In this document: positions 22,525-63,489 of the stretch, piece after piece
Layout: every line of letters starts with the position of its first letter
Numbering within the stretch: position 1 is the stretch's first letter
Source of the DNA: Ischnura elegans
Lineage: Eukaryota; Arthropoda; Insecta; Odonata; Coenagrionidae
Assembly: GCF_921293095.1 (NCBI RefSeq)
Contig: NC_060248.1
Location: 79,057,243 to 79,121,242, forward strand
Direction: 5' to 3'
Length of the DNA stretch: 64,000 nucleotides
The notes under the pieces: model-generated
Database searches by the model: none
Seen by the model: the letters and a program-made list of their open reading frames with translations, nothing else
Told to the model about the DNA's origin: nothing
Translations under genes and position numbers: made by a program

Positions 22525-22538
22525 TAGGGGAAGGAATG
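22525..22538 (+). other. polypurine tract of the gypsy element
   Basis: AGGGGAAGGAATG directly before the 3' LTR, at the expected position for plus-strand priming. The primer-binding site after the 5' LTR is lost with the internal deletion. Confidence 0.6.
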
Positions 22539-33796: not shown

Positions 33797-34290
33797 CCCA
33801 CATCGCACAAAATATCTTCTAGATGTCTAAAAAATATCTAGATCCAGCGGCGCAGCGAGGAGGGGTTTTGGGGGATAAAACCCCCCCCAGAGCTCACAGA
33901 AATTTTTAAGTTAAATCTATTTTACTTAATTGGAGTAATATTGCGTATAGAATAGTGTGATGATTAATAAAATATCCCTCAGAACGCCGTAAACATCACC
34001 ATTTTGATCCATTTATCTTAATTTTTTTCCGGCGGAAGGCCTCCGCACCTCCCGCTTACCCTGGCAGGTATGCAATACCCCCAAACCCCCCAGTATTATA
34101 GTTGCGCCTGAAACCCTCCCTAGCCTTAATTCCTGGCTGCGCCCTTGTCTAGGACGTCTTCAGCTAATGTCTAGAAAATAACTTGTAATATCTTCTAGAC
34201 ATCTTCTAGATATTTAGTAGATATCTGAATGTCCCATTTTCTGTTATCTACAAGATATCTTTGAGAAGATATTTTCTAGACATTCATATT
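33797..34290. mobile_element. E1 element, left end with TCTAGA words
   Basis: Tip CCCACATCGCACAAAATATC, of the CCCAGATAGCACAAG class, preceded by TG. It is followed by repeated palindrome-cored words (ATCTTCTAGATGTCT, TGTCTAGAAAAT, AATATCTTCTAGACATC, AGATATTTTCTAGACATTC). An M4 MITE interrupts it at 33,844-34,147. More of the same words (CTAGTAGATTTTTATGATATCC, TTTTCTAGACTTCTAGTAGATA) reappear at 35,170-35,238 after a hairpin insertion. No right tip of this family was found. Confidence 0.6.
33844..34147. mobile_element. MITE family M4, copy 1
   Basis: CCAGCGGCGCAGCGAGG at the left, CCTGGCTGCGCCCTTG at the right. Its interior (GAGCTCACAGAAAT, AATAGAATAGTGTG, AATAAAATATCCCTCAGAA) is shared with 52,499-52,849. 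It sits inside the E1 subterminal repeats. Confidence 0.75.
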
Positions 34291-34599
34291 CAAATTCAAT
34301 CCATTAGAAAAATTCAGGATAAATGAGTAAAATATAATATTTTTCGGTATAACAATAGTTTTTTTTCAACTGACAGCCTACTGGTGGAGCAGGAGGTGAT
34401 GGTAGGCTGCCTTCTAGGGATTCCTCCTGAATATTGGAACCTCTCTGGCATTCACTTCTTTCTAATGGGGGCTTCCTCCTCCTAGTCCAAATTTGAAGTT
34501 ACCAAAGTAGCTTATAATTTCCTTTTAGATTTCTCAAAGGAGTCTGCAACATTATCAATGAATGTTGATTCAGTGTCTTGCAAAATAGGTCTTGAAGAA

Positions 34600-34790
34600 T
34601 GTTTAATGCAAGTTTTTGCCAACGCATTTATACACCTTCATCAGGGCTATGAGTGAATGATATTTATATGAATAAGTACATAGCTGTGATACTTAAAAGG
34701 TTATGGCAATATTTGTTACGATAGTAAAAAAATTAATTGTAAATTAATTATAAGAAGCAGAGACTAGAATTTTGACATACCTTTCATTCC
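34600..34790 (-). other. possible Penelope-like element tail
   Basis: On the minus strand AGCCCTGATGAAGGTGTATA is followed by AT-rich sequence. CCTGATGAAGG-type signatures follow the endonuclease domain in many Penelope-like elements. No coding part is recognisable here, so this is tentative. Confidence 0.25.
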
Positions 34791-34814
34791 ATTGAATTGG
34801 ATTTGCTTATTGAT

Positions 34815-35104
34815 GGTAACTAAGCTGAGACAGTTTGATACTTCCACTGCAAAAACACTCAACAATCGCCCACCGAATCAAATCCGCTCATCTATTAGCC
34901 CAACAATACGAATCCGCTCAGCTGGCAGTGTCTGGAGCATTAACGCTCATCTCCTATTCCCCAATCTTGGAGGTGAGTGTTTATGCTCCGGACACTGCCA
35001 CCTGAACCGATTCGTATTGTTGGGCTACTACTAGATGAGCAGATTTGATTCGGTCAGCGATTGTTGAGTGTTTTTGCAGTGGAGGTATCGAGTTCATAGT
35101 TACC
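34815..35104. repeat. 290-bp near-perfect hairpin
   Basis: The left half starts GGTAACTAAGCTGAGAC and the right half ends GAGTTCATAGTTACC. The halves pair almost throughout (CCACTGCAAAAACACTCAAC with GTTGAGTGTTTTTGCAGTGG; CCCAACAATACGAAT with ATTCGTATTGTTGGG). The apex is about 34,950-34,980. A 75-bp piece of it (34,910-34,984) is copied exactly at 35,239-35,313. Confidence 0.85.
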
Positions 35105-35238
35105 TATCAATTTTGATTTCACTGGACATATATATGTACAAATAGAGTCCTCGCTCAAAAAAACGTATGCTAGTCATCTAGTAGATTTTTATGATATCCA
35201 CTAAATTGAAGACATTTTCTAGACTTCTAGTAGATATA

Positions 35239-35313
35239 GAATCCGCTCAGCTGGCAGTGTCTGGAGCATTAACGCTCATCTCCTATTCCCCAATCTTGGA
35301 GGTGAGTGTTTAT
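35239..35313. repeat. 75-bp exact copy of hairpin segment, cut by E2
   Basis: Matches 34,910-34,984 base for base and stops exactly where the E2 tip (CCCACACAGCAC, 35,314) begins. So E2 interrupted a second hairpin copy whose remainder is not in the window. Confidence 0.85.
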
Positions 35314-35520
35314 CCCACACAGCACACAGACACCTTTCGGACATCCGGTGATTGTCCGCCAAGTGGCCTATGGACGTCCTACGGACGTGCGAATTCATGC
35401 CAAAGGATGTCCGCTGCAAGTCCGCATGTCAGTAAAAAAGGTGGCCTACGGACGTCCTGAAAGTGTCCGCTCCGGACACCTTGAGGACACGTTTAGGTTA
35501 GGATTGCATTTTGTTCGATA
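35314..35520. mobile_element. E2 element, left end with GGACGTCC words
   Basis: Tip CCCACACAGCACACAGACACC, followed by words built on a GGACGTCC palindrome (TATGGACGTCCTACGGACGTG, TACGGACGTCCTGA, CCGCTCCGGACACC). A patch of the same word (GCGACGTCCGCAGGACATT) appears at 42,630. No right tip CTGTGTGCTGTGTGGG was found, so E2 either lost it or extends past the window around all later insertions. Confidence 0.65.
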
Positions 35521-35629
35521 CAAATAAATAATAGGTCCAGACAAGAATTTAAATAAATAAGGCATCAATTCCATGCAAAATATTTATTTGGCTTCTTAAA
35601 ATAATACAATGTAAGAAACTACATACATA

Positions 35630-37173: not shown

Positions 37174-38839
37174 CCCTGGTGAAAATAAAGTGTGCAAAAA
37201 CCGTGCAGAAAGTGTTCGTAAAGCGTTCTGAGAAGTGTGCAAGAAATGTGAAAAAAGCGTGCATTGTCCTCCAAAAGTGTGCAAAAAGTGTGAGGAAAGC
37301 GTGAATTGGGACTACTAAAATGTGCATAGCGTGCAAAGAGTGTGAGAAAAGCGTGCAAAGAGTCTGAGAAAAGAGTGCATTGCCCCCCAAAAGTGTGAGG
37401 AAAGCGTGCATTGGGACTACTGAAATGTGCATTAAGTGTGAGAAAAGCGTGCAGAGTGCCTTAAAAGTGTGAGACAAGCATGAATTGGGTCATTGCATTG
37501 CATTGCACGAAATGTGTGAAAGGAGCATGCAAGAATTTAGAATCATAACCCCAATGAAAATTTTATAAAGACTGTGTAAATTGTACAACAATTTGGCTTG
37601 ACACAATTTGTGTACATAGTTTACAATTGACACAGTTTCATACATTGTATAAAAAAGTGTCCACTACACACAAATTGTGTAAAGCCAAATTTTTGTACAA
37701 TGTACACATTCTTTATACAATTTGTAAACAATTGTACGGTTTTACTGAGAGCAATGGATAAATATCCAATGAAAGTTTAACACTTTCACTCACTTTCTTG
37801 GTAGTTTATTTCCCTTAACATCAATCTTTCAAATTATTTTATAAGAGAGGCAACACAGGCTTAAAATACCACCAATAGTGGAATAATAACTGCCAAAATT
37901 AATGGGCCAGAACCAGCAGGGAATCATTGAATTTAATTACTTTTAGGTAAATCATTAGATGCAGGGTAGCCATAATAATACGATCAGATAATGAATAAAT
38001 CATAATGTAATCTAAACATGGAATCCCCAAATACAGAGTACGATTTCTTACAATGTAAAAGATTATGCATTTGATACCGATTTTCTTCATTCCTCTTTCC
38101 TAATGCTCGGAATAGTCTGAGGAATAACTACAGCCACACTCTCAAAATGATAAATCCAAGTTTTCACAGGAGGTACTATCACAAACGTCACATTCAATAT
38201 TATTGGCAGGGGGGGGCAAAGAAAGAGACTTGATTTCAACTTTAATTGGAGAACTCGCAAATGTTCAAGAGCAGCCACTTTGCTCATGCTTGCTCCTATA
38301 CATCATTAATATTTGTACCCCCTTTTAAGTAGAAGTGGGAGCCCCACTAGCGTTGGGAAGAATGTGGTCCTCCAGCATCAATTGACGAATAATGTATCTC
38401 CATCAGCCTCGTCGTTGCCATTTCTGGGTTAGCATAGTCCATTTGCACCTCCTTGGGCTCTTAATCCTCCTGCTGGAGCTTAAGAATTTTTCTCTTTCTA
38501 ACTACAGGCGATCTGGAGAGACTAAGGTGTCGTGATCCTGGCATTCCAATATGAGGCGTCACTGTTTCCTTTATCCTCAAAGGGCCTCACATCATTTCCC
38601 AGTATGTGTACTTTTCTGCATCCTCTTCCAACTGTAAGGCATTTGTGAAAAATGTACAAATCAATTCTTAAATGATAACGATTGGAAAAAGTTAAATTGA
38701 TGACTATGATTTAAACAGATTCTTTATCACCTTAATTCTTCGACATTTTCCCAATGGGTATTCATTTTCGAGAAAAACCCTTCATATACGAGTTAATTAA
38801 GATTGAGACTAATAAGAAAAATATGTTCCATATACTCAC

Positions 38840-38992
38840 ATTTACATAGCACAGCAGAGATGGGTTGATACTGATAAAGGTATCTTCTTAAATCACTTCG
38901 TGCCGCTAAGAGCCACTGTTTCCGGGAACATTATTCTTCCAATACCTTTTGCCAGTCTTCACTGCGAAACACAGATTATTTTCCTCCTCCAT
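38840..38992 (-). pseudogene. E4 first exon relic, possibly THAP-like
   Basis: Minus strand, ATG at 38,990-38,992, then about 150 bp to AAAT|GTGAGTA. It is clearly homologous to 44,981-45,137 (+ strand) in E6, including the start (MEEEN), CF(A/V)V and the shared QWLLAAR-DLR piece read across frames, and the first 150 bp of the intron. The W-x2-A-x-R-x-D pattern followed by a late C-x2-H recalls a THAP finger, but frames are broken in both copies, so the label is tentative. Confidence 0.35.
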
Positions 38993-39528
38993 TGCGTACT
39001 CCAAAGTAAATTTGCTTGTAAAACAAGATTTTACAGCACAGCTCATATCGCAAAGTCACAAAGTAGAGTAACTACGAATGTAATCAAAGTTTCAGTTGCT
39101 GTTACCCATATTAGCATGGGGAGATGGCGATGTTCGTTGCGTTGGGTTGGGTCACATGACATACAAGATGGCCGCCGGTCATTTTGGCGCAAGTTTCAAA
39201 ATATGATTTTTAATCCAAGATGTTTAAAAAAGTTCGTAATATAATTAATGGGCATAAATTTGTAACTTCAGTTTTTTAAATATGTCAAATATATATTTTC
39301 CGTAGTTACCAAAAGTTGTGCAAATACTTGCTTGTCCCTGTTTGCATATTTTGTTGCCTTAAATTTACTAAGGTGGATCACATATGAAGATTATATTAAT
39401 GCCATTATATTGGTATATTACTAAAATGCTGATTAAGTACATATTATTAACACCTGATATCCAAGTTTCCAGTTTTATCGTTACCATGGAAGCATTTGTT
39501 TTTAATGCACATTTTAAACGGATCCTTT

Positions 39529-39788
39529 CAGAGGCGAAGCCAGGAATTTTGTTCGGGTGAGGGAGGTCCAAAAGCAGGGGCGGAAATTTTTGAAAAACAC
39601 GGCATTAAATAATGGGTTTTAAACCAATTTTAACACTTTTCATAATCGAAAAAAACTTCATTTGTTAAAGAAATATTTAGTAAATTCATGATTTTTCAAT
39701 ATATTGTTTCCTTTTATGAGGGAAAATAATTGTATTTTTATATTTCGAGGGGGTCCGGAACCCCTGGACCCCCCTGGCTACGCCACTG
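39529..39788. mobile_element. MITE family M1, inverted copy inside E4
   Basis: AGAGGCGAAGCCAGGAATTT at the left and GGCTACGCCACTG at the right. The core is the reverse complement of 28,479-28,722 (AATCGAAAAAAACTTCATTTG). Confidence 0.75.
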
Positions 39789-40012
39789 GATTCTTTCGCA
39801 TAAATTTTTGTATATTGTATTCACTTGTGTAAATTGTATACCGTGTAAACAATGTATGAATTTCCATACAGGCTCTAAAAATGTTTATAAAATGTCTATA
39901 CATGCGGTATATAATGTACAACTTTTAAACAGACTACACAATTATATATCAAATGTGTACATTGTACCTATCCTGTGTAGAAAATTGTGAACAAATTTAT
40001 CATTGGGGAAGT

Positions 40013-40830
40013 GTGCAGAAAGCGTTTGGTGAAGAAGTGTGCTGAAAGAGTATGAGCGTGCAAGAAGTGTGCAGAAAGCGTTCGGTGAAGAAGTGTGCTA
40101 AAAGTGTGAAAAGAGCGTGCAAGAAGTGTGAATGAAGAGCGTGCAAGAAGTGTGCAGAAAGCATTCGGTGAAGAAGTGTGCTAAAAGTGTGAAAAGAGCG
40201 TGCAAGAAGTGTGAATGAAGAGCGTGCAAGAAGTGTGCAGAAAGCGTTCGGTGAAGAAGTGTGCAGAAAGTGTTCGGTGAAGAAGTGTGCTAAAAGTGTG
40301 AAAAGAGCGTGCAAGAAGTGTGAATGAAAAGCGTGCAAGAAGTGTGCAGAAAGCATTCGGTGAAGAAGTGTGCTAAAAGTGTGAAAAGAGCGTGCAAGAA
40401 GTGTGAATGAAGAGCGTGCAAGAAGTGTGCAGAAAGAGTTCGGTGAAGAAGTGTGCAGAAAGTGTTCGGTGAAGAAGTGTGCTAAAAGTGTGAAAAGAGC
40501 GTGCAAGAAGTGTGAATGAAAAGCGTGCAAGAAGTGTGCAGAAAGCATTCGGTGAAGAAGTGTGCTAAAAGTGTGAAAAGAGCGTGCAAGAAGTGTGAAT
40601 GAAAAGCGTGCAAGAAGTGTGCAGAAAGCATTCGGTGAAGAAGTGTGCTAAAAGTGTGAAAAGAGCGTGCAAGAAGTGTGAATGAAGAGCGTGCAAGAAG
40701 TGTGCAGAAAGCGTTCGGTGAAGAAGTGTGCTAAAAGTGTGAAAAGAGCGTGCAAGAAGTGTGCAGAAAGTGTTCGGTGAAGAAGTGTGCTAAAAGTGTG
40801 AAAAGAGCGTGCAAGAAGTGTGAATAGAAC
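40013..40830. repeat. minisatellite in E3 right end
   Basis: Tandem higher-order units of roughly 60-110 bp are built from GCGTGCAAGAAGTGTGCAG, AAAGCGTTCGGTGAAG and AAGTGTGCTAAAAGTGTG. Several units are near identical, so they expanded recently. The long minus-strand frame through it (40,548-40,000) is a by-product of the repeat, not a gene. Confidence 0.9.
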
Positions 40831-40882
40831 TGTGCGCACACTTTTTGCACGGTTCTCTGCACACTTTATTTTCACCAGGGTG

Positions 40883-43490: not shown

Positions 43491-44980
43491 AATTTTTTTT
43501 ACAAATACATACATTTTATACTGCTAATCTTATAGCAATATGTGATTTTAAACTGAAACGAATTTATGGCAATTTTGATGATTATCTCCGAAGAATTATC
43601 AATTATATCTATTATTAACATAGGATGCAATGCCTAATTAGCCGTGCTGTTGAATTTGTTAACGACGCATTAGCGGAGAAGGTGATTGATATTGGTATCC
43701 CTCCGAAAATGCTAAAAATCCATCACGAATACTTAGGAGAACCTTAATTACAGACAAAAACACTGAACTCCTATGAAATAACAAATAATCGGTTGCTCTG
43801 CATTCTTTTCGTGTATGTAGCGGGGTTTGGAAAGCAATAATGCCAATTCAGGGAGCAAAAGAAAACGCTTTCTAAAATAATGAAAAATAACTTTTAGGCA
43901 GTTATCTATGAAAAGCAATATACAGTTAAAGAAACACAAGACATGCACTTATTGTAGAAAGAAACTTTTATTTCATGATAACATGACAAAGCTTCACCAT
44001 TTCCTTGGTTTGACGAATACGAATTCACAGCTAGTGTATGCACATAATTCACATTTGAAATCGCGAATCGGTTCCGCTGCCAACACAAACACACACAAGC
44101 AACAACGTATTTCAATAATATAGGTAAATCCACAAGCGATATACTAGCACATACCATAAAAACATAGTGGGAAATAGGCAAATATAATCATAAAAAACTG
44201 GAAGTCACTACCATACTTATATTAATCACGTCCCAGATAGCATGCAAGCTTGCAGCAAACTTGTCATAGGCTTGTCCTTGGCTTGTCACGACAAGCCTTG
44301 TCGTGGCAAGTTTGCAGCAAACTTGCTGTGACAAACCTATTCTGGCATGAAAGCTATGTACAAGCTTGAATAAAGCTTACAAGTTATGTGAACACATACA
44401 AGCCGTAGACTTGTACATCACACCTGCAGAATACATGCCATATTGCACCCATAGCAGATTTGTCATATCATTCCTGCAGCAAACTTGCCATATCACACCT
44501 GCAGCAAACTTGCCATATCAAACCTGCAGCAAACTTGCCATATGGCGCTTGCAGCAAACTTGCCATATCAAACCTGCTACTACCCACACATAGCATGTTA
44601 GCTAACGTGAAGCTTGACTTTTCCTTGCCATCTCAAGGTTGAATTTTTCATGCCTCTTTCCAGCCTATTTGGCTTGGTTGTAAGATTTTAATAATATGTA
44701 CTTAATGAGAATTATAGTAATATAACAATATAATGTTATTTGATATAATTATCTTCATACTCATAAAAAAACTCAAGTATAAAACTTTTCCCATTATATT
44801 ACGAACTTATTTTAATATTTTGGATTAAAAATCGTATTTTGAACTCGCGCCAAAACGCCCGGCGGCAGTCTTATGTACCACGTGACCTAACGGTTGCCGT
44901 TATTTTGTGATTGTGAATTTAGCTGTGAAGGCTGTGAAGTAAAATCTTGTTTTACAAGCAAATTTACGTTGAAGTATGCT

Positions 44981-45137
44981 ATGGAAGAAGAAAATCCGTG
45001 TTTCGTAGTGAATACTGGCAAAAGGGGATTGGAAGATTATTGAATTCTCGGAAGCAGTGGCTTTTAGCGGCACGAAGAGATTTAAGAAGTTGCCTCTGTC
45101 AGCATCTACTCATCTCTGCTGTGCTGATCATGTAAAT
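44981..45137 (+). pseudogene. E6 first exon relic, possibly THAP-like
   Basis: ATG (MEEENPCFVV) followed after a frameshift by a QWLLAARRDL segment, ending AAAT|GTGAGT. It is homologous to the E4 exon at 38,840-38,992, although E4 and E6 have different tips and words. This shows that the two families share an ancestral gene. Stops interrupt it. The zinc-finger reading (C...C...C-x2-H, THAP) is tentative. Confidence 0.35.
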
Positions 45138-49335: not shown

Positions 49336-49726
49336 AAATTCCTTGCAATATTAAAAAATTATTAGTATTTCCCCAACTGCACTGATTTATCGGTACAATA
49401 ATTTACAACCCAATCATAGTTAAATGCAACTCATTGCAGGATCACATGAGTACTGCGTCTTAACCGATTAATCTGATTTGCATATTTGATTGAATTGAAC
49501 GACCTAAGTTTGGTCGCCATCTCCTTAGCATTATGAATGATCAAAGTATTTAATTTCTCGCGCACTTACAAGTAAATATTGGCGCTATGTCAAACTACAA
49601 AATCAACTGACTACGTTAACATCAACAATGAACTGATAGTAACGAAATTAACGTAAAGTATGTGAAAATCATTTCGCGCACCCTATTTGTGAATAAACAG
49701 TGATAAATGAGCTGCCCTTATGATTC

Positions 49727-49830
49727 AGCCCTGATGATGAGTGCCGAGACGGTACTTGAAACGTTGGCCGATATAAAAACATTAACCCGGAGGGAATCCC
49801 GAGAAAAGTTTACCCACAATGATAAATCAG
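49727..49830 (+). other. possible Penelope-like element tail in E7
   Basis: GCCCTGATGATGAGTGCCGAGACGG-type sequence followed by GAAACGTTGGCCGATAT and CCCGAGAAAAGTTTACCC resembles the conserved tail after the endonuclease of Penelope-like elements. No coding domain is present here. Confidence 0.35.
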
Positions 49831-50454
49831 CTTTTTATGAGGTAAATCAACAATCAACCCAGATAGCACAAGATTTGTAATACCACTGCAATACCACCAC
49901 AATACGATCATATTACAAAATGGAACTCTTTGTATTCCATTTGTATTCCAATTGTATTACAGTGTCAAATGTCCTCTAATACAATTGTATTATATTCGTA
50001 TTACAGGGAAAAATACGAAACTTTTACAAATTGTATTTCTCCTGTAATACCATTGTATTACAGAGAAAATAAAAAGCTATTACAAATTGTATTTCTCCTG
50101 TAATACCATTGTATTACAGAGAAAATAAAAAGCTATTACAAATTGTATTTCTCCTGTATTATCTTCGTATTACAGAGAAAATACGAAAGTTTTTACAAAA
50201 GCTGATCATGTTAATTTTACATTTTTAGAGAGGTGAAAAGGAAAATATACTCTAAAATAAATAGTATAACTTTATTTGATGAAAAAAGCTATATTTAATG
50301 AAATATTTCTCATTTCATAACAATGCTACACAAGGATTTCATTTATGTAATATAAAGAAATTTCAAAGGTAAAGAATATAACGAAACATTGACAAAAAAT
50401 TTTGCAAATCATCCTCAGAACTATATTCTGTGATGTGAATCATCACTGGTATTA

Positions 50455-51515: not shown

Positions 51516-51537
51516 TAATTAAGCATAAATTACAATT

Positions 51538-53695
51538 TCAACCACTAAGAGGAACTATTTCGCCTTTCCGCCTATTACTCTGGTAGAGCCAGTTGGAAAT
51601 TTCTCTCACAAACTTGGTGTCTTCGTAGATCTCCCTTTTCCTTGCAGCACCTGTAAATATATTGAGATAACATTTTTTGAGCAGATATGAATGAAAGAAA
51701 ACCTTAATTATCACTTAATACGCATTTGTTAAAATACCTGCCAACAGTGATATTAAATTTTTTAAGCCATTCAGGGCATGTTTCTTCTTTTCACTCTTCC
51801 CCTGCCATGTGTACTCCGCAGCCACACAGTTACTCATAATTTTTATTAAATTCTTTCGGAGGAACTGTCCAAGATCTTTTGCATGTATCTCTCCCATAAT
51901 ATTTTCCTGTAATATTTAAAACTGGTCAGTTAGGACCAACACAAATCACTTTTACAACATTATCTTTTATGAGTCATGCAATGAAGTAAATTACCAGATA
52001 TTCCTTAAAGGCAGGGTCTCTGCCTAAGAGATCTTCAACTTCTATAAGCTCTTCCCTGCTTTTTACCGGCAAAGTGATGGGAGGGGTGTAGACTCTGCAT
52101 TGCGGCTCATAATTGTTATGCACTTGCTTTTTCCTAAGCAAGTCCAAAATTAATTTGGTATCTTCCTTTATAACAGCCAAATCTTTTTTGATGTGAGCCA
52201 CATCTTTTTCTAAAATGGAGAGCCTTTCGGAAAAATCTTTCTCTTGAACACCTGAAGAGAGGTAAATTTCACAATTATATTGTTCAGCTTTTTACAGTCA
52301 CATAAACTGGATTTTCAACATAATATATAGTCGTTGCGCCAATGATAAAAAAGTCATTAAAAGTAATCAAATACTCACATTCTTCACCTGGCTCCACTAA
52401 AAGCATAGATTCACACTCTGAAATGTAGAGAAAAAATTGACATTAAAATACATATTGGAAAATTTTTTTTCTTGTTTCATGAAGCATGATTAAACAATGG
52501 CGCAGCAGGGGGGGGGTTTGGGAGTTTAAACCCCACCCAGAGCTCAGAGAAATGCCTAAGTTTAATCCATTTTACTTTATTTGATTGATATTACGAATAG
52601 AATAGTGTACGGATTAATAAAATATCCCTCAGAAAGCCGCAAAATTCACCATTTTGAACCATTTATCTAAAAATTCCGCAATTTATTAATCTCACACCTA
52701 TCTCTTATCCTGGTGGGTATACCATACCCTCACACCTCAGTATTAGTTGCCACCTATCTCTTTTCCTGGTGGGTATTCCACACCTCCAAACACCCCAGTA
52801 TTAGTTGCACCTAAACCCCCCCAGCCTTAATTCCTAGCTGCGCCCCTGTGATTAAATACTTATATTTTAAAGCCACTACTGTTACAATAACTATTACTGA
52901 AACTTCAAAATTGTCATTTGCTTTTATATGTGCAAATTATTAATAATGGAAATTTGAGCAGTCTTCCTATGGTGCTACTAGCGTTACATGGGGCAATCAT
53001 TAAGTTACATACCATCTCCATCTTCTATTAGAGATACAGGGTTTTCTAAATAATCCACTATTGGAGCATTTTCTTCAGCTTTCTCCCTCATGGATGGAGG
53101 AGAAGGGATTCTCTTTCTAGGAGGCATAATGATCTCTTCCTCCGTACTTTCCTCCCCAGGTTGAGTCCTCTTGGCAGGAATTCTTATCCTTGCCTTTCTG
53201 ATTTTGGCATCAAGTAGCACTTTCTGTGCTTTCTGGCATGACTTAAGTTTAATAGCCAGGGTTTCCAGCTCTAGCGCTTCTTGGAAATCATCTGAAAAGT
53301 CAACATATGCGCTACAATCAACTCAGGAACCTGTCACACATTACCACATCATGGTTTTATTACAAATCAATTTAACATTATATGGGAACATTCATAATAG
53401 TTATGAACAAAATATTAGTCAAGCTTTGGATATGTAGCAATCGAAATCACTCCAACGGTACTTAATGAAAACTTGCTGAATACTACTTACAAACTGAGGA
53501 TGACATTTCTAACACCAACGTAAGTGACCATGAATCCTCTGGCTGTGTTTTCATTTTGATGGCATCCATGACATTCACACTTTTACTAGGAGGCCAAAGG
53601 ACATATTTATTTCCATCAATCACTTTTACCCAGTTTTCAGGTACCACGTTAAAAATGCAGCCATCTGCCTCCAGCATCTCTGCCACCAACCACAT
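51538..53695 (-). CDS. E8 accessory protein, coiled coil plus DUF4806-like region, six exons
   Basis: Minus strand. Exons are 53,695-53,491 (ATG start; acceptor just upstream at 53,697-53,698), 53,291-53,013, 52,417-52,379, 52,251-51,995, 51,906-51,738 and 51,650-51,538 (TGA). All borders are GT/AG (donors GTAAGT, GTATGT, GTGAGT, GTAATT, GTATTT). Phases 1, 1, 1, 0, 1 agree, giving 353 residues without a stop. Residues about 1-60 have an N-terminal module seen in many arthropod DUF4806 proteins (VVPENWV, then LWPPSK, then PEDSW). The middle is basic and acidic (PAKRTQ, RKRIPSPP). About 180-215 is a heptad-like coiled coil (ERLSILEKDVAHIKKDL). A DUF4806-like region follows (ITLPVKSREEL, then the AAEYTWQGKSEKK block), then a last exon with ISNWLYQSNRR. 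The function is unknown. By position and by analogy to TnpA of En/Spm it could bind the subterminal words (inference). Confidence 0.8.
52499..52849. mobile_element. MITE family M4, copy 2, in an accessory-gene intron
   Basis: GGCGCAGCAGGGGGG at the left, CCTAGCTGCGCCCCTG at the right, with the interior as at 33,844-34,147. It lies wholly within intron 2 of the accessory gene (52,418-53,012), so it does not disrupt coding. Confidence 0.75.
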
Positions 53696-53791
53696 CCTAA
53701 AACATGAGATAAGAAATTTTTCTGTTAGATAAAATTTGATGAATGGATTGATTGTTGAATTATAATATCTAATCATCTCACCACTTCCACG

Positions 53792-55846
53792 TCAATTATC
53801 ATGGAGACTGTGCAGTAATTCTGCCACAAAGTAAACATCACTTCCCAGGCCCATTGGTACCCTCAATGCTTTTCCTTTTACTTTGGAGATAGGCCATTTT
53901 GCCGGATTCAAGAGCTTTCCTGCTTTATAAATTCCAACTTTTGTTGATGCACATGGGTTGAGGAAGAAGTTTTCGACAGTTTCAAATTTTTGTCCAAGGA
54001 TCACTTGGCTCCCATTGCACGTTCCAATGAAACGGATGACAACAATATCACCAGAGTCCATTATGACACAGTCATTAGGTGGTTTGGCAGCAATTTTGAA
54101 GCCGTTGCATTTGATGTATGAGTATGCTGGTTCAGTGAAACCTAAAGGTATAGCATTCTTCACAGACTTTGAACATGCTGCACCTTCAATGTCTGACTTC
54201 CCAAGTAATTTCTTTGCCTGTTGAGTTGATGACTGTTCTGTCAGCCTGCGACATAACTGCTGCAGCGGTTTATCAGGTTTTCTCAGCACTTTTTTAATTG
54301 TTTGCAGTCTGTTTTCAAACTTAAAAGCACTAAAAACATCTAGCGGCCCAAGGGACTTAACATTAGAGGTGATGTGAATCAAGTTGTGCACGTTATGTGA
54401 AACACTTTCCTCCCCATAAAGTGCAGGAAAATTTTCAACGAAGTAGAGAAGTAGCTCTTCTGCATAATCGACATATTTAGAAATCAACTCTTTACTTATC
54501 AAAATTCTGACAGCGGTATGCAGACAAAGAAAATGCTGAAATACTGTACTGCAAACAGAGCCATTTAGAACAAATGGGCCAGTATAGAGAAGAAATTGTC
54601 TGAATTCTGTAGCCTTCCAACGTAAAAGCTCTTTTAAAGATCTGGGCTTCCGCACAAAGTCTGAAGAGACAAATGACACAATATGTTCTAGACGAAGGTT
54701 GATTAGGTTCAGGTTTTGAGAAGAGAGCCGCACAGAGTAGCTACCTTTGGTGAATGCCAGTAAAACTTTCCTCATTACACCTAAGCAGATCAAGTGCATA
54801 TAATCAATTGGAAAAGCAGCCACAATGTCCAGGTTTGGAATTTTTAGAAGAGGAGTTGTGCCAACATGATGAATGTCATCTCTTTTTTCCCTAAAACTTT
54901 CATTGGTCCTCAGACTACAGTGGCTGTCTAAGAAAGACACTCTGTTTTTTATGTAATCTCCCTCAACAGTGCATTTAGGGCAACTACTGTATGCCGTGTG
55001 TGACTTTATTTGCAGCAGAAATGCACGTGCTGGAGCATCACAAACAAATGAGTGAACAGACACCTTAATATTCCTACTACCGACATTAATTCCCTCATCA
55101 AGAGTGAGACACAATTCATCAATGAAATTGCCCATGAAATCATCGCAACTTTCTGGTTTCTCTTTCCCATGATACACCCCTACAGGAAAAGGGATGATTT
55201 CCGGTAATTCCACGATGGCAATTAGTATAGGCCATAACTGACTTCCACTGCTCTTAGAAATAGGAAGACCATCTACATTTATTTGCAAACTGATGCTGTC
55301 TACAATCTTATAATTATTTTGAAGTATGTCCAACAGCAAACACCGCAAGCCTAGATGAGCATAGACCCCACACCCCATTTTCCTCACCTCTGTATGTCGT
55401 GGTGTTTTAAGCAATGTTCGACAGTCTGATGGCAACTCTTTTAGATAAGGACATGATTTCAATATTTTTAGGAGACTGTTTACTTTGCTTTGAGGAATAT
55501 CACTGGCCCAAGTTGATAATTCATTCCTAAATGTGGAAAAATCAAAATCAATTGGCAACTGCTCATCCTCAGAATCTGAAAGTGGTTCTAAAATTTCTAT
55601 GTCTTCATCCTGAACATCACTGATATCACTCTGAAGCCAAGAAGTATGTCCCACATTTTCATTTTCATTAAAGATGTGTTCTGGTGATAATCTAGGTTGC
55701 TCTGTGACACCTGAACAACAGGAACCATCAACTCCCTCTCTTTCCACCTCAAAATCATCATTCGAAACAATTTTTGCTTTCTGAAGCAACCTGCGCTTGT
55801 GTCTCTCTGAGACACTTTCTATATTTTTATACCTATATTTTGGCAT
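53792..55846 (-). CDS. E8 Tnp2-like (EnSpm/CACTA-type) transposase, 684 aa
   Basis: Minus strand. The ATG at 55,846 is chosen because a clear acceptor (TTTTCAATTGCAG| at 55,875-55,876) lies just upstream; the frame itself is open further up. The head is basic then acidic (residues 10-105). The core has NVDGLPISKSSGSQLWPIL (190-208), SCDDFMGNFIDEL (233-245), FVCDAPARAFL (267-277), the K-x-HTAYSSCPKC segment (281-292), DYMHLICLGVMRK (348-360) and HNLIHI...GPLDVFSAFKFEN (487-512). The D192, D270 and late E/N block fit the RNase H-like core of Tnp2 transposases (pfam Transposase_21 type). No stop or frameshift. A donor at 53,780-53,781, just past the stop codon, could splice to the accessory exon at 53,696. 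Confidence 0.8.
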   Translation of the reverse strand: MPKYRYKNIESVSERHKRRLLQKAKIVSNDDFEVEREGVDGSCCSGVTEQPRLSPEHIFNENENVGHTSWLQSDISDVQDEDIEILEPLSDSEDEQLPIDFDFSTFRNELSTWASDIPQSKVNSLLKILKSCPYLKELPSDCRTLLKTPRHTEVRKMGCGVYAHLGLRCLLLDILQNNYKIVDSISLQINVDGLPISKSSGSQLWPILIAIVELPEIIPFPVGVYHGKEKPESCDDFMGNFIDELCLTLDEGINVGSRNIKVSVHSFVCDAPARAFLLQIKSHTAYSSCPKCTVEGDYIKNRVSFLDSHCSLRTNESFREKRDDIHHVGTTPLLKIPNLDIVAAFPIDYMHLICLGVMRKVLLAFTKGSYSVRLSSQNLNLINLRLEHIVSFVSSDFVRKPRSLKELLRWKATEFRQFLLYTGPFVLNGSVCSTVFQHFLCLHTAVRILISKELISKYVDYAEELLLYFVENFPALYGEESVSHNVHNLIHITSNVKSLGPLDVFSAFKFENRLQTIKKVLRKPDKPLQQLCRRLTEQSSTQQAKKLLGKSDIEGAACSKSVKNAIPLGFTEPAYSYIKCNGFKIAAKPPNDCVIMDSGDIVVIRFIGTCNGSQVILGQKFETVENFFLNPCASTKVGIYKAGKLLNPAKWPISKVKGKALRVPMGLGSDVYFVAELLHSLHDN

Positions 55847-56360
55847 TGTCAAACTGAAGATTGAACTTTTGGTTCTGCAATTGAAAAGGGAAATTATTAT
55901 AATATGCCAAGTAAAATTAGGATTCAAGTTAATTTTACTTAATTATAGCTTAACCTATCACAAAATTCTTAAGCAACTCTATGTTAACCTATGCAGTCTT
56001 TCTTTTGATGGCAACAGAAATTTCATTTTCCACTTCCCACAAGCATAGCAATTACCACTTCAAACTATTATCTTGAACAATTTTCCAATACTTGCATTAT
56101 TTTTTTACAATACCCTCCATGTTATTTAGGCGCTACACCGGAAAATGTAGGGGTGGATTTTATTGAGATATAGGTTCCTATAATTAGTTTAGGGTATTTG
56201 GTTTTCCTCAAAGAAATAAGTCCTAAGATGAAGTTATTCCATGCGGTAACAATATTACCTAAAATTTCGTTGCATTGCAATTATCTCAATATTGCAACAA
56301 TTGTTGCAATATTGAGATAAATGTGGTATTTGGCGGAGGCGACTGACAGGTACGATCAAG

Positions 56361-56496
56361 GCCGGATCCAGGATTTCGTTCTGGGGTGGAGGACAAGGAT
56401 ACCCCGTAAAACAAAACGAATGCAATGATAACGGGACCGTATTAAAAATCGACTTTCCCATTTTTTAAAGGGTCTTGGGGGAACTTGCCCCGTGCG
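56361..56496. mobile_element. MITE family M3, diverged copy in E8
   Basis: GCCGGATCCAGGATTTCGTT, then AAACAAAACGAATGCAATG and GGGACCGTATTAAAAATC. The right tip is degraded (CTTGCCCCGTGCGC). Confidence 0.65.
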
Positions 56497-56832
56497 CAAG
56501 TTGTTCTTTTTTCAATTAATATAAACTAAGAATTGAATTCTTTGTCTTTTGAGGAGCGTTTACAATTTTTAAACGAAATTTTACGATAAATATTAACTTA
56601 TATTTCGAGTTCTTTATAAACATCAACATGGAAATTGATGCTGCATTAAATGCGTTAATATTGACCTTAGAACTTCGTTTAAAATTTGACAAGGCTCAGA
56701 AAAAAATGAGGAATTCAATTCAAAGTCTGCAATTTACGTGCAAGAAACAATTATCCATGTGCCAAACACACATATTAAGCAACCCCCATGAGTTGACCTC
56801 GAACCGATGCCACTGGTAGGGTCGTAAACCCA

Positions 56833-56864
56833 GAGAGGAGGGAGCACATGTGCTCCCTCCTCTC
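56833..56864. repeat. 32-bp perfect palindrome
   Basis: GAGAGGAGGGAGCACA followed by its exact reverse complement, within the 5' half of E8. Purpose unknown. Confidence 0.85.
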
Positions 56865-57276
56865 CGGAAGCACATCTGCTCCAGTCCTCACTGGAAGGGG
56901 TTGAAAAAGGTTGGAGCTGAAAGCGTGTGATTGTCCGCGACACACTTTAACGAATGTCCTCCAAAAATGCTCCGTACCAATGGCGCAGCGAGGGCGATAA
57001 ACAATTATTTAAGGCAATGGGCACTTCTTCAAGTCTTCGCAAGGTTGGGTGCCTCTCTAACTTTCACAAAAAAGTGGTATTCACCCGAAATTTTCTCTTG
57101 CCTCACTAATTACATTCATTAAAATTAAATTTTTGTTGACATCCTCGGTCTAGTAACTTGTTAGGTAATCGTTGACTCTTTAACATAGATATATCCGTAG
57201 GGATTAATAATGAATAAAACGAGACAGCAACACGTCACTATTACAATAATTGCATTATCAATTGATACCAATGTAA

Positions 57277-57314
57277 AACCTTTAGGCGCCTATTAATAGG
57301 CGCCCTTAAAGGTT
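57277..57314. repeat. 38-bp inverted repeat
   Basis: AACCTTTAGGCGCCTATTA followed by its near-exact inverse (TAATAGGCGCCCTTAAAGGTT minus overlap). It lies upstream of the E8 transposase exon, in the region where its promoter and first exon would be expected. Confidence 0.75.
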
Positions 57315-58290
57315 ATAGAGAACAACCACTTCCCAAGCTTAACTCATCAAACATTTGTATGCATGCATCGATTAAACCAAATATTGCCATAATCTTACCT
57401 GCAGCAAAAACCGTAGGTGCTGGAGCTGGCAAGGTATACCGCTGTCGCAGCCGTAGTTTCAAAATCAAAATCAAAACGGAGCCGGGGTCAAAATCGGGAG
57501 GATATTCCAAAAACCAAACGAAGCAGGGGTCAAAACCGGGAGAAAAGGAGTCCAATGCGGTGCAGGGGTCAAAGTAATCTACAAAACGAATCAGAAAATG
57601 TGCGCCAGAGCTCTCACGACCTTCTCACAACGAGGTATCAGCAGGGCTTTTCATTAATTGTTTACGCGATCGCCAAGACGACAGATCAATAATAATAATA
57701 AATCTGTATTTGCCCGGAGATCTGGTACATATACATATATTATATACAATTGAGTATTTTAACATTAAGATTCAATAAGATATTCATCAATCGAATATAA
57801 TAGGGATTTCGTGACAGGATCGCGAAAATCACATTGTTGCTCTTCACTAAGCCATTTCGAACATTCCGCCGCGTAAGTTTCGTGCTTCAGTTTACGCGAC
57901 GAGAGTTATCAACGAAAACTCAGTTTCCGCCGCGTAAACAGCAGACCGCAGTAGACGACGGAGCCACATACTGTTAATATATGTCGTATATTTGCTTTGC
58001 CATGTAAACAGCGGTGTTCATTGTAGTTGTGGACGTAATTTCATTTCGTGCAAGTAATAATTTGCATATTTAACTGTTAATTTCATGAATTTTACATTAT
58101 TCTTGTCTCTTATATGCTTCTCATATTCTCTTTTCGTAATGTATGCCTATTGGAGTTGGAGGTATCGTAATATTATTGTGGAAATGTTTTATATTTTAAA
58201 GAGTTACTGCAGTATTCATGAATAGCCCTGCAGGAAAAGAAGTTCGACGATACGTATTTCATCATTGTTTTGCGTATTCCGGGCGGTTGA
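57315..58290. other. E8 right internal region, probable promoter/5' leader
   Basis: No convincing exon was recognised. For the minus-strand genes this is the upstream end, with GC-richer patches (CCGCCGCGTAAAC and similar at 57,870-57,940). The donor feeding the acceptor at 55,875-55,876 must lie between here and 55,880. Confidence 0.3.
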
Positions 58291-59849
58291 GGGATTCTCC
58301 TGGTAATACAAAGCTTTTACAATTGTATTACAAATGTGGTATTTCCCTTGTATTTTGGCTTTGTATTACAACTGAATTGCGAATCATCTGTATACAAGAA
58401 GTTTGAATACAACTGTTATACAGTTGTATTACAAAAATCGGTACAATTTGTAAACGTACAGAAGATATACCATTTGTATACAAATGCTTGTGCTATCTGG
58501 GAAGGGGATAGTGAGCCTATATGTCACTAAATTTTCAGCATTTTTTCGAATACTTTCCCCAAATTCAAGGTAAATAACGCAGAAGACGAAATTCGAGTGC
58601 AAGAATGGGAATTTATTTTTCTTTCCAATGTTATATGCTCCAACTATGTGCAACCATTATCACTAATTTAAATATGCAAAAGAAAAGGTTGCAGTCGTTC
58701 ATAACGAACTTTACCTGTCCTTCTTACGGAAAATATTCAGGGCCCATTCCAAGGCCACATATACCTCATAATATTCTCACCTTTTAAACCTTCCCTGAAC
58801 TTTCACTCACCAACATTTTAAAATCAAAATGAGCCAAATCGGTTCTCGAGTATTAGCGAGACTAAAGGACATCAATTCTTATAATCTATATCAGTAAATG
58901 TGACAATGCACCTCGAGCCACACAACATGGCGGCTAGCCGAATATTAAACATATCAACTTTCATTAATTTTAATGTCTCAAAATAAATCTGCTGTTTACA
59001 TTAATTTTCCTTATTATCGGGAATTCAACAAAACTTAATAATAGTCCACAGAGTAAATAATAGCGTCGGAAGGATAACGGCCATGCTTCGTGAATATTTT
59101 CGACTTGCACGAGGCGATTTGGGATCAACACTAAGGTAGGTACATTAGATAACGAATATTATCCTTAATGAGGTTAATGAGTGACACATGAAAATACATG
59201 TAAAAGGCAACCATAAGCGAATCGAATACACTACCGAATAAATGACAAAATCTAAGTCCTTTGGGACACGTGAAGACAATATGATAATGCCATAAAAATT
59301 AGCAGGGATACAAATTAATCAGTACTTACCTCAAAGCGGTGAAAATGGACGCAGTTGAAAAAGCGATTGCAAGAACCGGCAAGCTCCAACAATGAGGATA
59401 AACACGTGCGGTGATCGTAACTTCGAAGGCAGGACCTCTCAGATTCGAGTTACAAAGTGAAAGAGACGAAGCGGATGTTGCAAGGGGGAGGAAGGGCTCT
59501 TTTCCGGTATCGGCGTAGTCAGCGATATAATTATACTAATTAATGTCTAATTCGTGTTATACCACGACGAATTACCAATATAAAATTAGAAAATAATTAA
59601 ATATACAGCCATGATCACTCGGTATCCGCATAATGCCTCTTGAAGATAATTTAATTTCGGAAAGGCGAAGTGTTGACCTCGGAAAGAAGCGGAAGTGGGT
59701 GGGGGTGAACACTCGAAAATTGACGAACCAAGGGAGAAAGGGGAGAGGGCGGCCATCTCCTCGGGGTCTCTTACCTGTCGTCAAGAGACAGTCTCCTGTG
59801 TGCTTGTAGGGTTGGTATTATTGTATTTATAACAATTTCATATTTACAG

Positions 59850-60082
59850 GCTGCAGTAAATTAAAACTAAAGAATGGGCAGCTCCTCATGTGGATGGGAG
59901 AAATGGCACCTGGGTTTTCTCACTTGGAGAGGAAAGTAGATGCTTTATTGGCTTGTGACCCAAAGCAAAAGGATTCTGCTGTGAAGGAGATGTATTTCAG
60001 CCGATTGCCATTGACAGCAGATGAGGATTTCATCAAACTCTGCCGTAGGATAAGTGAAGAAACCTCATTTGGGCCAAAGTTG
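59850..60082 (+). pseudogene. E6 accessory-gene exon with DUF4806-like start
   Basis: ATTTACAG| to |GTAAGTG, entered one base into a codon and left in phase 0, the same phases as exon 4 of the intact E8 gene. It is open throughout and encodes KLKLKNGQLL, MAPGFSHLERKVDALL (helical) and FSRLPLTADEDFIKLCRRI, aligning with the ITLPVKSREEL block of E8. Exon order and phase make homology convincing although the sequences are diverged. Confidence 0.65.
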
Positions 60083-60486
60083 GTAAGTGAATAATGATAA
60101 TTTGTGTGCTACCTTCCTGATTCAAAAAATGTATGATTGTTTAATGAAAGAACAATTAAGTTTTTGTAAGAAAGTTTCAAAATTGATGTAAATCTGGAGC
60201 TCGCCAGACACTCGGTGTTTGGAATTCAAAGTGCTATAAAAATACTCAAGTACAACATAATTTTGAAGTGCGTATGGATTATTGTCCTATGAAATATTAA
60301 ACAATTATGGTATGATTGGATTTTTGTTATTTCATATGCACTTGTGCACACATACTACATGTGCATACTAACCATGACAATTGTGTTAATTTTTTTGGTG
60401 AATTTTTCTTCTGGCTATAAACATGATTTTTGTTATTCTTGTATAAGCTGTTAACTCTTAATTGATCTGATCTTTTTTATCTCTAG

Positions 60487-60665
60487 ATGCAATGTTTGGT
60501 AGCAGTTGGTAGAAGAAATGAATGAACACTTCTACAAAATATGTTGCGTCGTCTTAGAATGACTATGTAGCAGAGCTGTATTCCCTTATGGGCAAACTTC
60601 AGAAGAATTCGGTTAAGAAATCATTTTATAGCACTTCAGTGTGTCCTGTTATTTTTCGGGAGTGC
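60487..60665 (+). pseudogene. E6 accessory-gene exon, broken
   Basis: After TATCTCTAG| the frame reads MQCLVAVGRRNE then hits TGA. MLRRL continues beyond it, and a frameshift near 60,565 leads to VAELYSLMGKLQKNSVKKSF, the conserved C-terminal block of DUF4806-like proteins. One stop plus one frameshift: the gene is dead. The 3' border is not certain. Confidence 0.5.
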
Positions 60666-60758
60666 ATCCAATAGGATATTCTAAGATTATTATAATAATT
60701 GATCGTTGAAATGAACTTTTAACATACTGCATTAAGTATGTTTTTTATAATTTCATAG

Positions 60759-60855
60759 GTGTATGCAGAAGGGTCTACTCTGATGCATCAGATGTGGTGC
60801 TGATAGGGTGTCTGAGTAATTGGCTCAACCAGGCTAAAGTCAGGAAAATAAGAAT
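60759..60855 (+). pseudogene. E6 accessory-gene exon with SNWL motif
   Basis: TTTCATAG| to |GTAAGT, entered in phase 1. It encodes RRVYSDASDVVLIGCLSNWL and QAKVRK, alignable to KREIYEDTKFVREISNWLYQ in the last exon of E8. Open, and leaves two bases for the next exon. Confidence 0.6.
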
Positions 60856-61088
60856 GTAAGTAGTCGCTTCTCATTTCCGTGCCACATTAATTCGATTCGA
60901 TGGAAGTTGAATAATTTACCGCCATTGTGAGAATGTGGGGGTACAATATGGACATATTATTTATTGAATCTGATTGCTTATTCTTTTTGGAATATTAGTT
61001 AATAATTTCTCAATTTACCTCCCTGATTTAAGCAAATGATACATGATATATCATTTCACATGGAGTAATTACTATTTTCTCTTCAGGG

Positions 61089-61146
61089 ATTGGCAGGATA
61101 AACAGACCGAGGATCAGGCTGATGAAGACAATAAGTTTGCTTAATA
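61089..61146 (+). pseudogene. E6 accessory-gene last exon
   Basis: CTCTTCAG| then, in the phase set by the previous exon, DWQDKQTEDQADEDNKFA and TAA at 61,144-61,146. This acidic tail has no counterpart in E8. An AATAAA lies about 370 bp downstream. Confidence 0.45.
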
Positions 61147-61769
61147 AGTTCATCAGTAACGATCTATAAGTATGTAACCATGTAAGTTCCATGCACAGCC
61201 TTGTACTCCCATAACTTAACAAGAATTCAAAAGAATGAAGTTTTAATTTTAAATCCTCAAAGCCAATCAGCATACTTGTGAATGTTTTGATAAAATTCGA
61301 GCAATATGTTTTTACCTTTTGAAGATTTCTGTAATTTAGTTATTACCATGTGTGGCCTAGGGGGTCATACATTTTTTAAAGTGTTTCTGTTTTAGATGTT
61401 TCCTATTCAGTTTGTAAGTATTTCACTCACTTCATTAATAATGATTAACTATCGATGACTAGACATCTATCTTTGATATGTCCACCGCTGCCTCAACATG
61501 TACATAATTAATGAGAAAAATAAACTCTTCAGCATTTATTTGTTGCCCATTTTATTAAATAAATTTAGCAGCCAAATTCTGTGCATGTGAAATGACTAAC
61601 AATTGAGAGAGTAGAAAATTTTCAATTTTGTTGTTGTAAATTGATCATTATTTAGGAGAGCATTTTATTTAGCAGAAATTTTAAGGCAGTTTTTCCTCAG
61701 CAAGTGTCACTACAGAAATGGTAGGTGTTGAACTAGTTTTCCTAGTATGTAGCAGGTGTGACACTACAC

Positions 61770-62125
61770 GTTTTCAGCAGGTGTGATGTGACAAGTTTGC
61801 AGCAGGTTTGATGCGACAAGTTTGCCGCAGGTTTGTTGCGACAAGTTTGCTGCAAGTTTGAAAAAGCGTAACTAGGAGGTTTGATTCAAGCTTGCCGCAA
61901 GCTTGCAGGCTTGTCATGACAAGCTTGCTGCAGGTTTGATGCGACAAGTTTGCTGCAGGTTTGATGCGACAAGTTTGCCGCAGGTTTGTCGCGACAAGTT
62001 TGCTGCAAGTTTGAAAAAGCGTAACTAGGAGGTTTGATTCAAGCTTGCCGCAAGCTTGCAGGCTTGTCATGACAAGCTTGCTGCAAACTTGCAACTTTGT
62101 CATGACAAGCTTGCAGCAAGTTTAG
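61770..62125. repeat. E6 right subterminal word array
   Basis: GACAAGTTTGC(A/C/T)GCAGGTTTG-type words are repeated in both orientations. 61,806-61,930 and 61,937-62,092 are largely duplicates of one another (both contain GAAAAAGCGTAACTAGGAGG). Confidence 0.9.
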
Positions 62126-62138
62126 CATGCTATCTGGG

Positions 62139-62874
62139 GTACAACTTACAATCATAGAGCTCGCTATGATGAAAAATACTATATATTCACCGATTTTGAG
62201 ACTTAATTAGCCCATTCAAGTGGCACAGGTGACTTTTCTCACTGCTATTCGTTGATATACTAGAAAAATAAACTTCACACACAGCTTTGATCTTGATAGC
62301 TTGATTGTGATATGTCATACCCACGGTGAACAACGGAGGATAACACGCCACTGTCATTTTCATAACTGTCCATTTATCGATAGCGTAATAGCACTGTTTA
62401 CAATTCAATCACGATGGAAATCTGAAAATACAACTCTTGGCCGATGTTTTTCAACCTTGTCAAACTTAACTGTCATAGTGCATTACAACCACTGCACTGT
62501 TATTTCCAGCAGTAGGTTAACGAGAGTTGTCACGATGAAAATAACACTATTTTGGCACAAAAGATGTTTTAGTAAAAATCGAAAATCTCCAAGCATAGCG
62601 AACTAAGTTGTATTCTCTTGGTGTTCACCTTATAATACAAGCACAAGCAGTCCTTAACGACGAATTTTCCAGTACCTACGAAGAAATGGATGAAATTATT
62701 GACTGTCAAAGCATAGCGGGCATTAGAAAATATCAAAATTGTTCTAATTACACAAATGGATGAGGTGACGTCGATAACATCAACTTACAATTAACGTATC
62801 CACCTCCAACGGCCGTGGCTCATTGTCAGACTGCTACAACGATGCTACTGACTTCTTGGTTTAACCACTGTTCC
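62139..62874. other. no recognisable gene
   Basis: Sequence right of E6, probably part of E5 or its host. Only short chance frames. Confidence 0.4.
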
Positions 62875-62924
62875 AGTTTATATTTTATGCGCTTACTCAT
62901 GAGTAAGCGCATAAAATATAAACT
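62875..62924. repeat. 50-bp perfect palindrome
   Basis: AGTTTATATTTTATGCGCTT read inward from the left, centre ACTCATGAGT, and the exact inverse on the right. No loop. Confidence 0.9.
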
Positions 62925-63182
62925 ATTATAAATAAAGATATTAATATTGTAAATAATACAAAATTTGAGGGCTTCTGAGCCTCTATCGTCGGATATTTTG
63001 CTTTACATTGGAAATAACCAACACGTATCACAAACGAAGCTCTCACAACTGCTCGCAACTCATAAACAATCAAAACAATACACTAACGTGGTCTGCAGAC
63101 GACCAACTTGCGACCAACTGTGTTACCATCTCCGGCACACGGCTCGTTAGCTTAGGCAATTAAGGCATTGTTAGAATACGTC

Positions 63183-63489
63183 GCGTATATTTATGGTCTA
63201 CAGGTAACTTCCATCATTTAAGTTACCTGTAGACTAGAAATATCCCAAATGCATACGCCTTCAATTTTTCGTGTATTATACGCCGTGTATATTTATAATT
63301 AGCTGTTTCAGGCGTAACTTTATGAAATCTACTTGACATGATGAAAATACATGGCATGATATTTGTGTGGAATAACTAATGTTTTCTTTACTTTTCATCA
63401 CGCGTATATTTTTGGTCTACAGCCTTACATCGGTTAAGTTACCTGTAGACTTGAAATATCCCAATAGGGAAATTGCATACTTTTTATAA
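63183..63489. repeat. two inverted-repeat modules with GTCTACAGG words
   Basis: Module 1 (63,183-63,262) reads GTATATTTATGGTCTACAGG ... AGTTACCTGTAGACTAGAAA. Module 2 (63,401-63,489) repeats the design (TTTTTGGTCTACAG ... TAAGTTACCTGTAGACTTG). The GTCTACA/TGTAGAC core is the E5 word, so this is likely the E5 right subterminal region. Confidence 0.6.

Follow-up and report, generated by a model that had tools for sequence, protein, structure and literature searches.

The 64,000-nucleotide stretch of the Ischnura elegans genome analysed here (C3:79057243-79121242, hereafter called the window) contains a series of CCC-tipped transposon ends, each running into a dense array of short subterminal repeats whose repeated word changes from family to family. 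What kind of transposon combines nearly constant tips with changing words, and what might read the words? The reading proposed here, to which we give a probability of about 65 %, is that these are CMC/TRC-type elements whose private words are lineage-specific protein-binding arrays, with the second protein of the element as the most likely reader. It draws on the transposase and its motifs, on a tip common to otherwise unrelated ends, on words that are nearly private to each family and conserved between its copies, and on five words tied by position to five transposase lineages. The element E8, which carries both genes, has the following parts (positions in the window):

49858 to 58501, no strand assigned: E8 (W9), inside the element W8, with transposase and accessory gene, tips CCCAGATAGCACAAG, duplication AA
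49858 to 50200, plus strand: left subterminal array of E8, words TTGTAATACAA / TACAAATTGTA
58290 to 58501, minus strand: right subterminal array of E8
53792 to 55942, minus strand: E8 transposase, an open frame of 716 amino acids with the CMC motifs D224, D302, C321xxC324, H519xxxH523 and E543
51538 to 53696, minus strand: E8 accessory gene, predicted to have six exons bordered by GT-AG, exons further upstream being possible
53696-53491, 53291-53013, 52417-52379, 52251-51995, 51906-51738 and 51650-51538, minus strand: exons of the E8 accessory gene

With the E8 transposase as query, 62 scored matches including itself were obtained out of 865 candidates in the genome (genome searches covered 1.72 Gb in 110 contigs). 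Three were identical over their full length and the other 59 had 36-48 % identity; 44 of the 62 were without an internal stop. Fourteen representative transposases had pairwise identities of 35-59 %. The CMC signature combines the catalytic DDE residues with two pairs, C(2)C and H(3-4)H, located between the second D and the E (PMC12730594). The alignment columns that we ourselves assigned to it, namely both D, the C(2)C and H(3)H pairs and E, did not vary in any of 13 aligned transposases (13 of 13), and in a second set they were invariant in 13-14 of 14. The Pfam family DUF4218 was matched by 8 of 13 transposases at E ≤ 0.01 and by 10 of 13 at E ≤ 10, DUF1258 by one and two of 13, respectively, and a sequence search of the PDB with the transposase profile gave no match.

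CMC ends are CA..TG "in most cases", with duplications of 2-5 bp (PMC12730594), whereas the ends here are CCC..GGG with 2-bp duplications. The CCC tip and 2-bp duplication are found in TRC elements (PMC1636069, PMC4298943), reported in 2006 from Tribolium and Aedes, and also from Schistosoma (PMC1636069). The Tribolium tip CCCTAGTAGCACCG resembles CCCAGATAGCACA of the present elements, a motif like the eumetazoan box A is present in 3 of 14 transposases in its strict form and in 13 of 14 if D or E is allowed, and the D-D spacing was 78 in the 10 that were scored of the 14, compared with about 80 in that paper (PMC1636069). Unlike TRC elements, none of the 14 transposases has the TRC motif I, and the Pfam family Transposase_21 (PF02992) had no match in 13 transposases at E ≤ 10; the accessible part of the TRC description mentions neither a family-specific word code nor a DUF4806 protein (PMC1636069). 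The Hydra element Spongebob / EnSpm-4N1_HM, with relatives in Rhodnius and Bombyx, likewise has a similar tip, CCCAGCCAACATTGAC, and a 2-bp duplication, and was named TRC by its authors, whereas neither an array nor an accessory protein appears in the accessible part of its description (PMC4298943). Since tips and duplications match those of TRC elements, the clan is assigned, by these sequence features, to the CMC superfamily (CACTA/EnSpm-like) with TRC-type ends. An earlier note on this DNA knew of no description of such a code-switching clan in arthropods; the element type itself is not new there, given the Tribolium and Aedes elements (PMC1636069).

The tip CCCAGATAGCACA was present at 469 exact places in the whole genome (246 + 223), compared with 11 (3 + 8) for the reversed pattern. 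After identical ends had been collapsed to one, 29 distinct ends with this tip, from 28 fetched loci of the 469 places and from the window, were compared. Twenty belonged to one family, La, and four to the E8 family (three grouped by their similarity, and the left end of E8 itself), while both ends of locus L007 and single ends of L015, L018 and L028 did not resemble the remaining ends (E 1e-5 over 40 bases). The identical tip thus leads into unrelated DNA in different families.

The other CCC-tipped elements and ends in the window are the following:

15300 to 16013, no strand assigned: E9a (W1), CCC element without transposase, word CAACGTTG, duplication TA
16016 to 18056, no strand assigned: E9b (W1), tandem second copy, the middle TA being common to E9a
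33797 to 34295, plus strand: left end of W2, tip CCCACATCGCACA, word TCTAGA, broken by an insert at about 33846-34144
35314 to 35500, plus strand: left end of W3, tip CCCACACAGCACA, word GGACGTCC
37174 to 40880, no strand assigned: W4, tips CCCTGGTGAAAATAA, word AAGTGTGC, not palindromic, duplication TG
37549 to 40008, no strand assigned: W5, inside W4, tips CCCCAATGAAAAT / CCCCAATGATAAA, word TTGTACAA, duplication AA
43184 to 63469, no strand assigned: W6, outermost, word GTCTAC at both ends, duplication AA, right end tentative
44232 to 62138, no strand assigned: W7, inside W6, tips CCCAGATAGCATGC, words CAAGCTTG and TTGTCATGACAA, duplication GT
45838 to 59811, no strand assigned: W8, inside W7, tip CCCAGCTAGCACAC, word GAGAC-N-GTCTC, duplication TT
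51320 to 51515, minus strand: W10, right end of another CCC element, word TTCATGAA

W6, W7, W8 and E8 are thus nested one within another. For W8 and W6 the right end was placed by direct reading of the sequence, and for W6 it is tentative because the tips of that element agree only over CCCT. W2 (33797), W3 (35314) and W10 (right end at 51515) have a single end each in the window. The W10 end is found at the identical place, shortly past the accessory stop codon, in all three copies of E8, which therefore harbours a further CCC element that was inserted long ago. The tandem E9 copies (15300-18056) have one TA between them, which suggests that one copy was inserted beside the end of the other. 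The 2-bp duplications of the CCC-tipped ends, as first noticed from the sequence, were confirmed for E9 (TA), W4 (TG), W5 (AA), W7 (GT), W8 (TT) and E8 (AA). Among the fetched loci, duplications were present in 6 of the 8 distinct pairs that remained in a strict recount of tip pairs, and in 7 of 14 less strictly defined pairs (binomial 9e-6, with a chance of 1/16 per pair); the latter were counted by hand from 15 loci with a right end, L007 and L008 being the same place, and the first right end was taken where there were two. Locus L054 holds the right side of an inserted element, for which L052 provides the matching empty site with TT. Pairing of CCC tips de novo in the fetched loci gave many weak pairs, with a similar number of weak ones in a reversed control, so only strong pairs were used.

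Subterminal repeats were assessed in 16 end sets by comparing the commonest 5-mer or 7-mer with first-order Markov shuffles (P ≤ 0.05), against a background of 300 random genome pairs, of which 5.7 % passed for the 5-mer and 10.7 % for the 7-mer, counted apart. Repeat density was above that of the shuffles in 15 of the 16 sets, as the description of the repeats as dense had implied, the miss being the set Lc; because the sets were delimited by eye and Lf (L054) was chosen for being rich in repeats, this test is biased in favour of the claim. Within the family to which it belongs each chosen word reached 8-42 per kb, against mostly 0 and at most 11 elsewhere (the ends of L041 and the second end of L048 were added to this comparison after the end-set statistics and have no P values). 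The words had been described as completely different between families; they are nearly private, the exceptions being TACAAATTGTA, common to E8 and W5, and GGACGTC, common to W3 and the second L048 end. Half-sites of the E8 words were present at 47-60 per kb at its ends (47 in the left array) compared with 1.6 per kb in 4400 bases inside the element. Where both ends are known the words are present at both, and they persist in copies of 287 bp, next to the tips at two ends. Tandem units in the arrays are of 56 bp in E8, 62 bp in E9 and 25 and 153 bp in W7.

A palindromic core passed in 11 of the 16 end sets, with a background of 8 %. Eight of the ten window families passed (W3 marginally, P 0.05), as did two of the five families outside the window (L032 and L054, chance 0.054) and the 16th set, Lb, which is the family of E8 again. 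The statement that almost every word is palindromic is therefore too strong, holding for most window families and failing for W4, W6 and most families outside. Palindromes were found in E8 (TTGTAATACAA and TACAAATTGTA), E9 (TGCAACGTTGCA), W7 (GCTTGTCATGACAAGC), W8 (GGGAGACTGTCTCCC), L032 (ATGTATACTATACAT) and L048 (ATGGATTCCAT). GAGAC-N-GTCTC is palindromic and occurs; GAGAC or CGTGC as stand-alone palindromes were rejected from the sequence.

Copies of nine ends were searched in the genome, and an alignment was counted as beginning at the tip if it started within the first three letters of the tip; the copy counts are lower bounds, because only the best candidates were scored. All 40 alignments began at the tip for L032 (84-91 % identity apart from itself), L041 (91-99 % apart from itself), E9 (98-100 %) and La (96-100 %), as did 34 of 37 for L048, 38 of 40 for the left end of W8, 37 of 45 for that of W7 and 32 of 55 for that of E8, the remainder of the last being partial or internal array matches. 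For W10, 36 of 45 began at the tip, mostly with 68-78 % identity outside the three E8 copies and once with 92 %. Eight of the nine end arrays are thus well conserved between copies and W10 weakly, so that the random or drifting words which had been named as the outcome contrary to a code did not occur in those eight. The left end of W7 (44232-44480) had 99-100 % identity in 25 of 45 alignments, which is a very recent burst; apart from the nest itself, no transposase among the matches listed was near the 40 W7 places checked.

Five words are tied by position to five transposase lineages, those of E8, L032, L048, L041 and E9. The left end of E8 lies at a constant distance from the transposase in three of three copies, the E9 end 1123-1127 bp upstream of a transposase in four copies, and the L048 end upstream of the transposase in both family members (L048/L051, 2/2). 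The ends of L032 and L041 lie 994 and 828 bp upstream of their transposases; each of these two links was observed a single time, at the locus that had supplied the end. The chance expectation for such pairs is about 0.017 per 40 places; 40 places each were checked for E9, L032, E8, L041, W10, La, W7 and W8, and 37 for L048, omitting short internal-array matches of E8 and last or repeated ones of W10 and W7. A wider proximity check added no link except for an end resembling W8 (74 %) which lies 4.8 kb beyond another transposase on C4, oriented as the opposite end, and this is a tentative sixth link. The earlier note had assumed one transposase type for all families. The idea of a single common transposase was rejected, the proteins having diverged (38-48 % identity in the pairs compared): those of E8, L032, L048 and L041 are 40-47 % identical to one another, and the E9-linked transposase, compared with that of E8 only, is 38 % identical to it (its four copies have the same frame length, 695 amino acids, and were treated as one family, unaligned). 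Words and proteins may therefore simply have diverged together.

The E8 accessory gene lies downstream of the transposase, and its predicted product of 353 amino acids contains DUF4806 (PF16064) at residues 231-315, scoring 30.0 bits where the cut-off is 25 (E 6.6e-7). A single accessory exon alone scores under the cut-off, and a PF16064 profile search gave no match in the genome or in any of its 14 control genomes. A search of PDB sequences with the C-terminal part of the accessory protein gave one match (E 0.35) and no useful relative. With queries drawn from five of 30 loci and from E8, the N-terminal part of an accessory protein was found downstream of the transposase in 28 of the 30 loci, corresponding to 13 of 15 families in our grouping; the match of L048 spans 17 residues only. 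DUF4806 has been described as a subtype of BEN DNA-binding domain (PMC11075544, citing Pan et al.), and palindromic sites are reported for NAC1 (ACATGT) and for Insv and Bsg25A (CCAATTGG) (PMC7764960). Because some BEN proteins bind palindromes, the predicted DUF4806 protein of E8 is a likely candidate for the reader of the subterminal words, and the other families would be expected to carry DUF4806 likewise. No published link of DUF4806 or BEN to CACTA elements was found in the literature searched, which mostly excluded subscription journals.

The near-constant tip would be the cleavage site of the conserved catalytic core of the transposase, cleavage leaving the 2-bp duplication, and the private word beside each tip a putative lineage-specific array of protein-binding sites. 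Such an array would be kept within a lineage and its gene-less copies, would differ between lineages as their proteins diverge, and may expand partly through tandem duplication of its units. The words would then be binding sites conferring specificity, read most probably by the second protein of the element, in E8 the one with DUF4806, and dimeric or symmetric recognition would account for the many palindromic words. To our knowledge, TnpA/TNP1 is unrelated to DUF4806.

Neither the element type nor the underlying principle is new. Plant CACTA elements are already known to combine constant tips with subterminal repeats that vary and binding proteins that have diverged, and the subterminal repeats of En/Spm are bound by TnpA, a protein distinct from the transposase (PMC2613891). 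Plant CACTA elements such as En/Spm and Tgm thus resemble the present clan in conserved tips, variable subterminal repeats and a transposase with a separate protein, and the likening of the clan to En/Spm holds as regards common tips, family words and an accessory gene beside the transposase. They differ in that Tgmt* has a CACTA tip and a 3-bp duplication (PMC2613891), whereas here many words are palindromic. New here are the many lineages in one genome, words that follow transposase lineages, the tendency to palindromes and the DUF4806 protein as candidate reader.

Several observations weigh against the proposed reading of the words as protein-binding arrays. Loci L033 and L049 had no accessory match, and DUF4806 was seen in E8 only, the other families having been sampled at the start of the accessory gene. 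NAC2, also a BEN protein, binds a non-palindromic site (PMC7764960), and the palindrome test was failed by W4, W6, La, Lc and Le. None of the 40 places each of La, W7 and W10 outside the E8 nest lies within 10 kb of the 62 listed transposases, and most places of the linked families, too, are without a transposase among the matches listed. When E8 was compared with two short relatives, conservation of the words did not significantly exceed that of the spacers (Fisher P 0.12 and 0.16), and the members of a third pair were so alike that the test could not discriminate (P 1.0).

That result, together with the tandem units held by several arrays, would fit words that are by-products of slippage in neutrally drifting tandem repeats and have no reader. 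Such drift is very improbable, as the arrays are conserved across many dispersed copies and start at the tip, the words occur at both ends where both are known, and many sets exceed their shuffles for palindromes. The earlier note had proposed that selection against cross-mobilisation drove the switching of words. Nearly private words in several coexisting lineages with near-identical tips would suit this view, as would the young appearance of the lineages (three E8 copies with identical transposase, and the near-identical left ends of W7), but it is unlikely: the linked transposases have diverged alongside the words, so that special selection is not needed, and no switch of word was seen between close relatives.

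VANDAL elements are Mutator-type transposons. In Arabidopsis they encode a sequence-specific protein, VANC, whose target repeats change among related elements, and these targets are tandem repeats (PMC5735166), as are parts of the arrays here. The arrays might accordingly be targets of an anti-silencing protein of this kind and not sites of cut-and-paste movement, but this is decidedly unlikely. The demonstrated role of VANC is anti-silencing and its targets lie also in introns and upstream regions (PMC5735166), whereas the words here flank the tips at both ends and survive in the 287-bp copies, as expected for movement sites. It is also somewhat unlikely that the variable N-terminal part of the transposase reads the words while the DUF4806 protein serves otherwise, for example in regulation. 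The words do follow the transposase lineages, R47 is the single invariant column of the aligned transposases before W145, and in other superfamilies transposase domains read the ends, as reported for Hermes; against this, the En/Spm repeats are bound by the separate TnpA (PMC2613891), the start of the accessory gene is present at nearly all loci sampled and that of E8 encodes a domain reported to bind DNA.

In this genome at least five lineages combine tips that resemble one another with private arrays, transposases that are often open and an adjacent candidate reader, and swapping arrays and proteins between them makes discrimination of own and relative ends testable in animal CACTA-type elements. 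As a tentative extension, DUF4806 (BEN-type) accessory proteins might be dedicated readers of palindromic words, DUF4806 having arisen or spread as a specificity component of CACTA elements with one code per lineage. If true, this would give a role to DUF4806, an animal domain, and supply a collection of DNA words naturally paired with their binding domains.

Some further features of the window were noted. At 12602-29958, two CCCAGGATCA tips may form a large pair; each side is flanked by TA, and 40 8-mers are common to the two. The right array of W4 (40008-40824) has expanded to some ten 83-bp units, and an open frame lies on the minus strand in the same region (40000-40647). A degenerate segment of about 0.8 kb is inverted between W5 and W7 (38651-39465 and 44673-45536), its pieces being 76-93 % complementary. 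Exon-like stretches of W7 and W5 were considered as THAP or DUF4806 remnants, an idea dropped when Pfam gave no domain in five such pieces. Inside W8, 48129-49336 is a tandem array of 4.7 copies of a 259-bp unit. A fragment of a transposase of piggyBac type at 8768-9319 matches the Pfam family DDE_Tnp_1_7 (E 7e-9). Near W2, a short inverted-repeat element of a different type, with CACTG...CAGTG tips, occupies 34845-35081.

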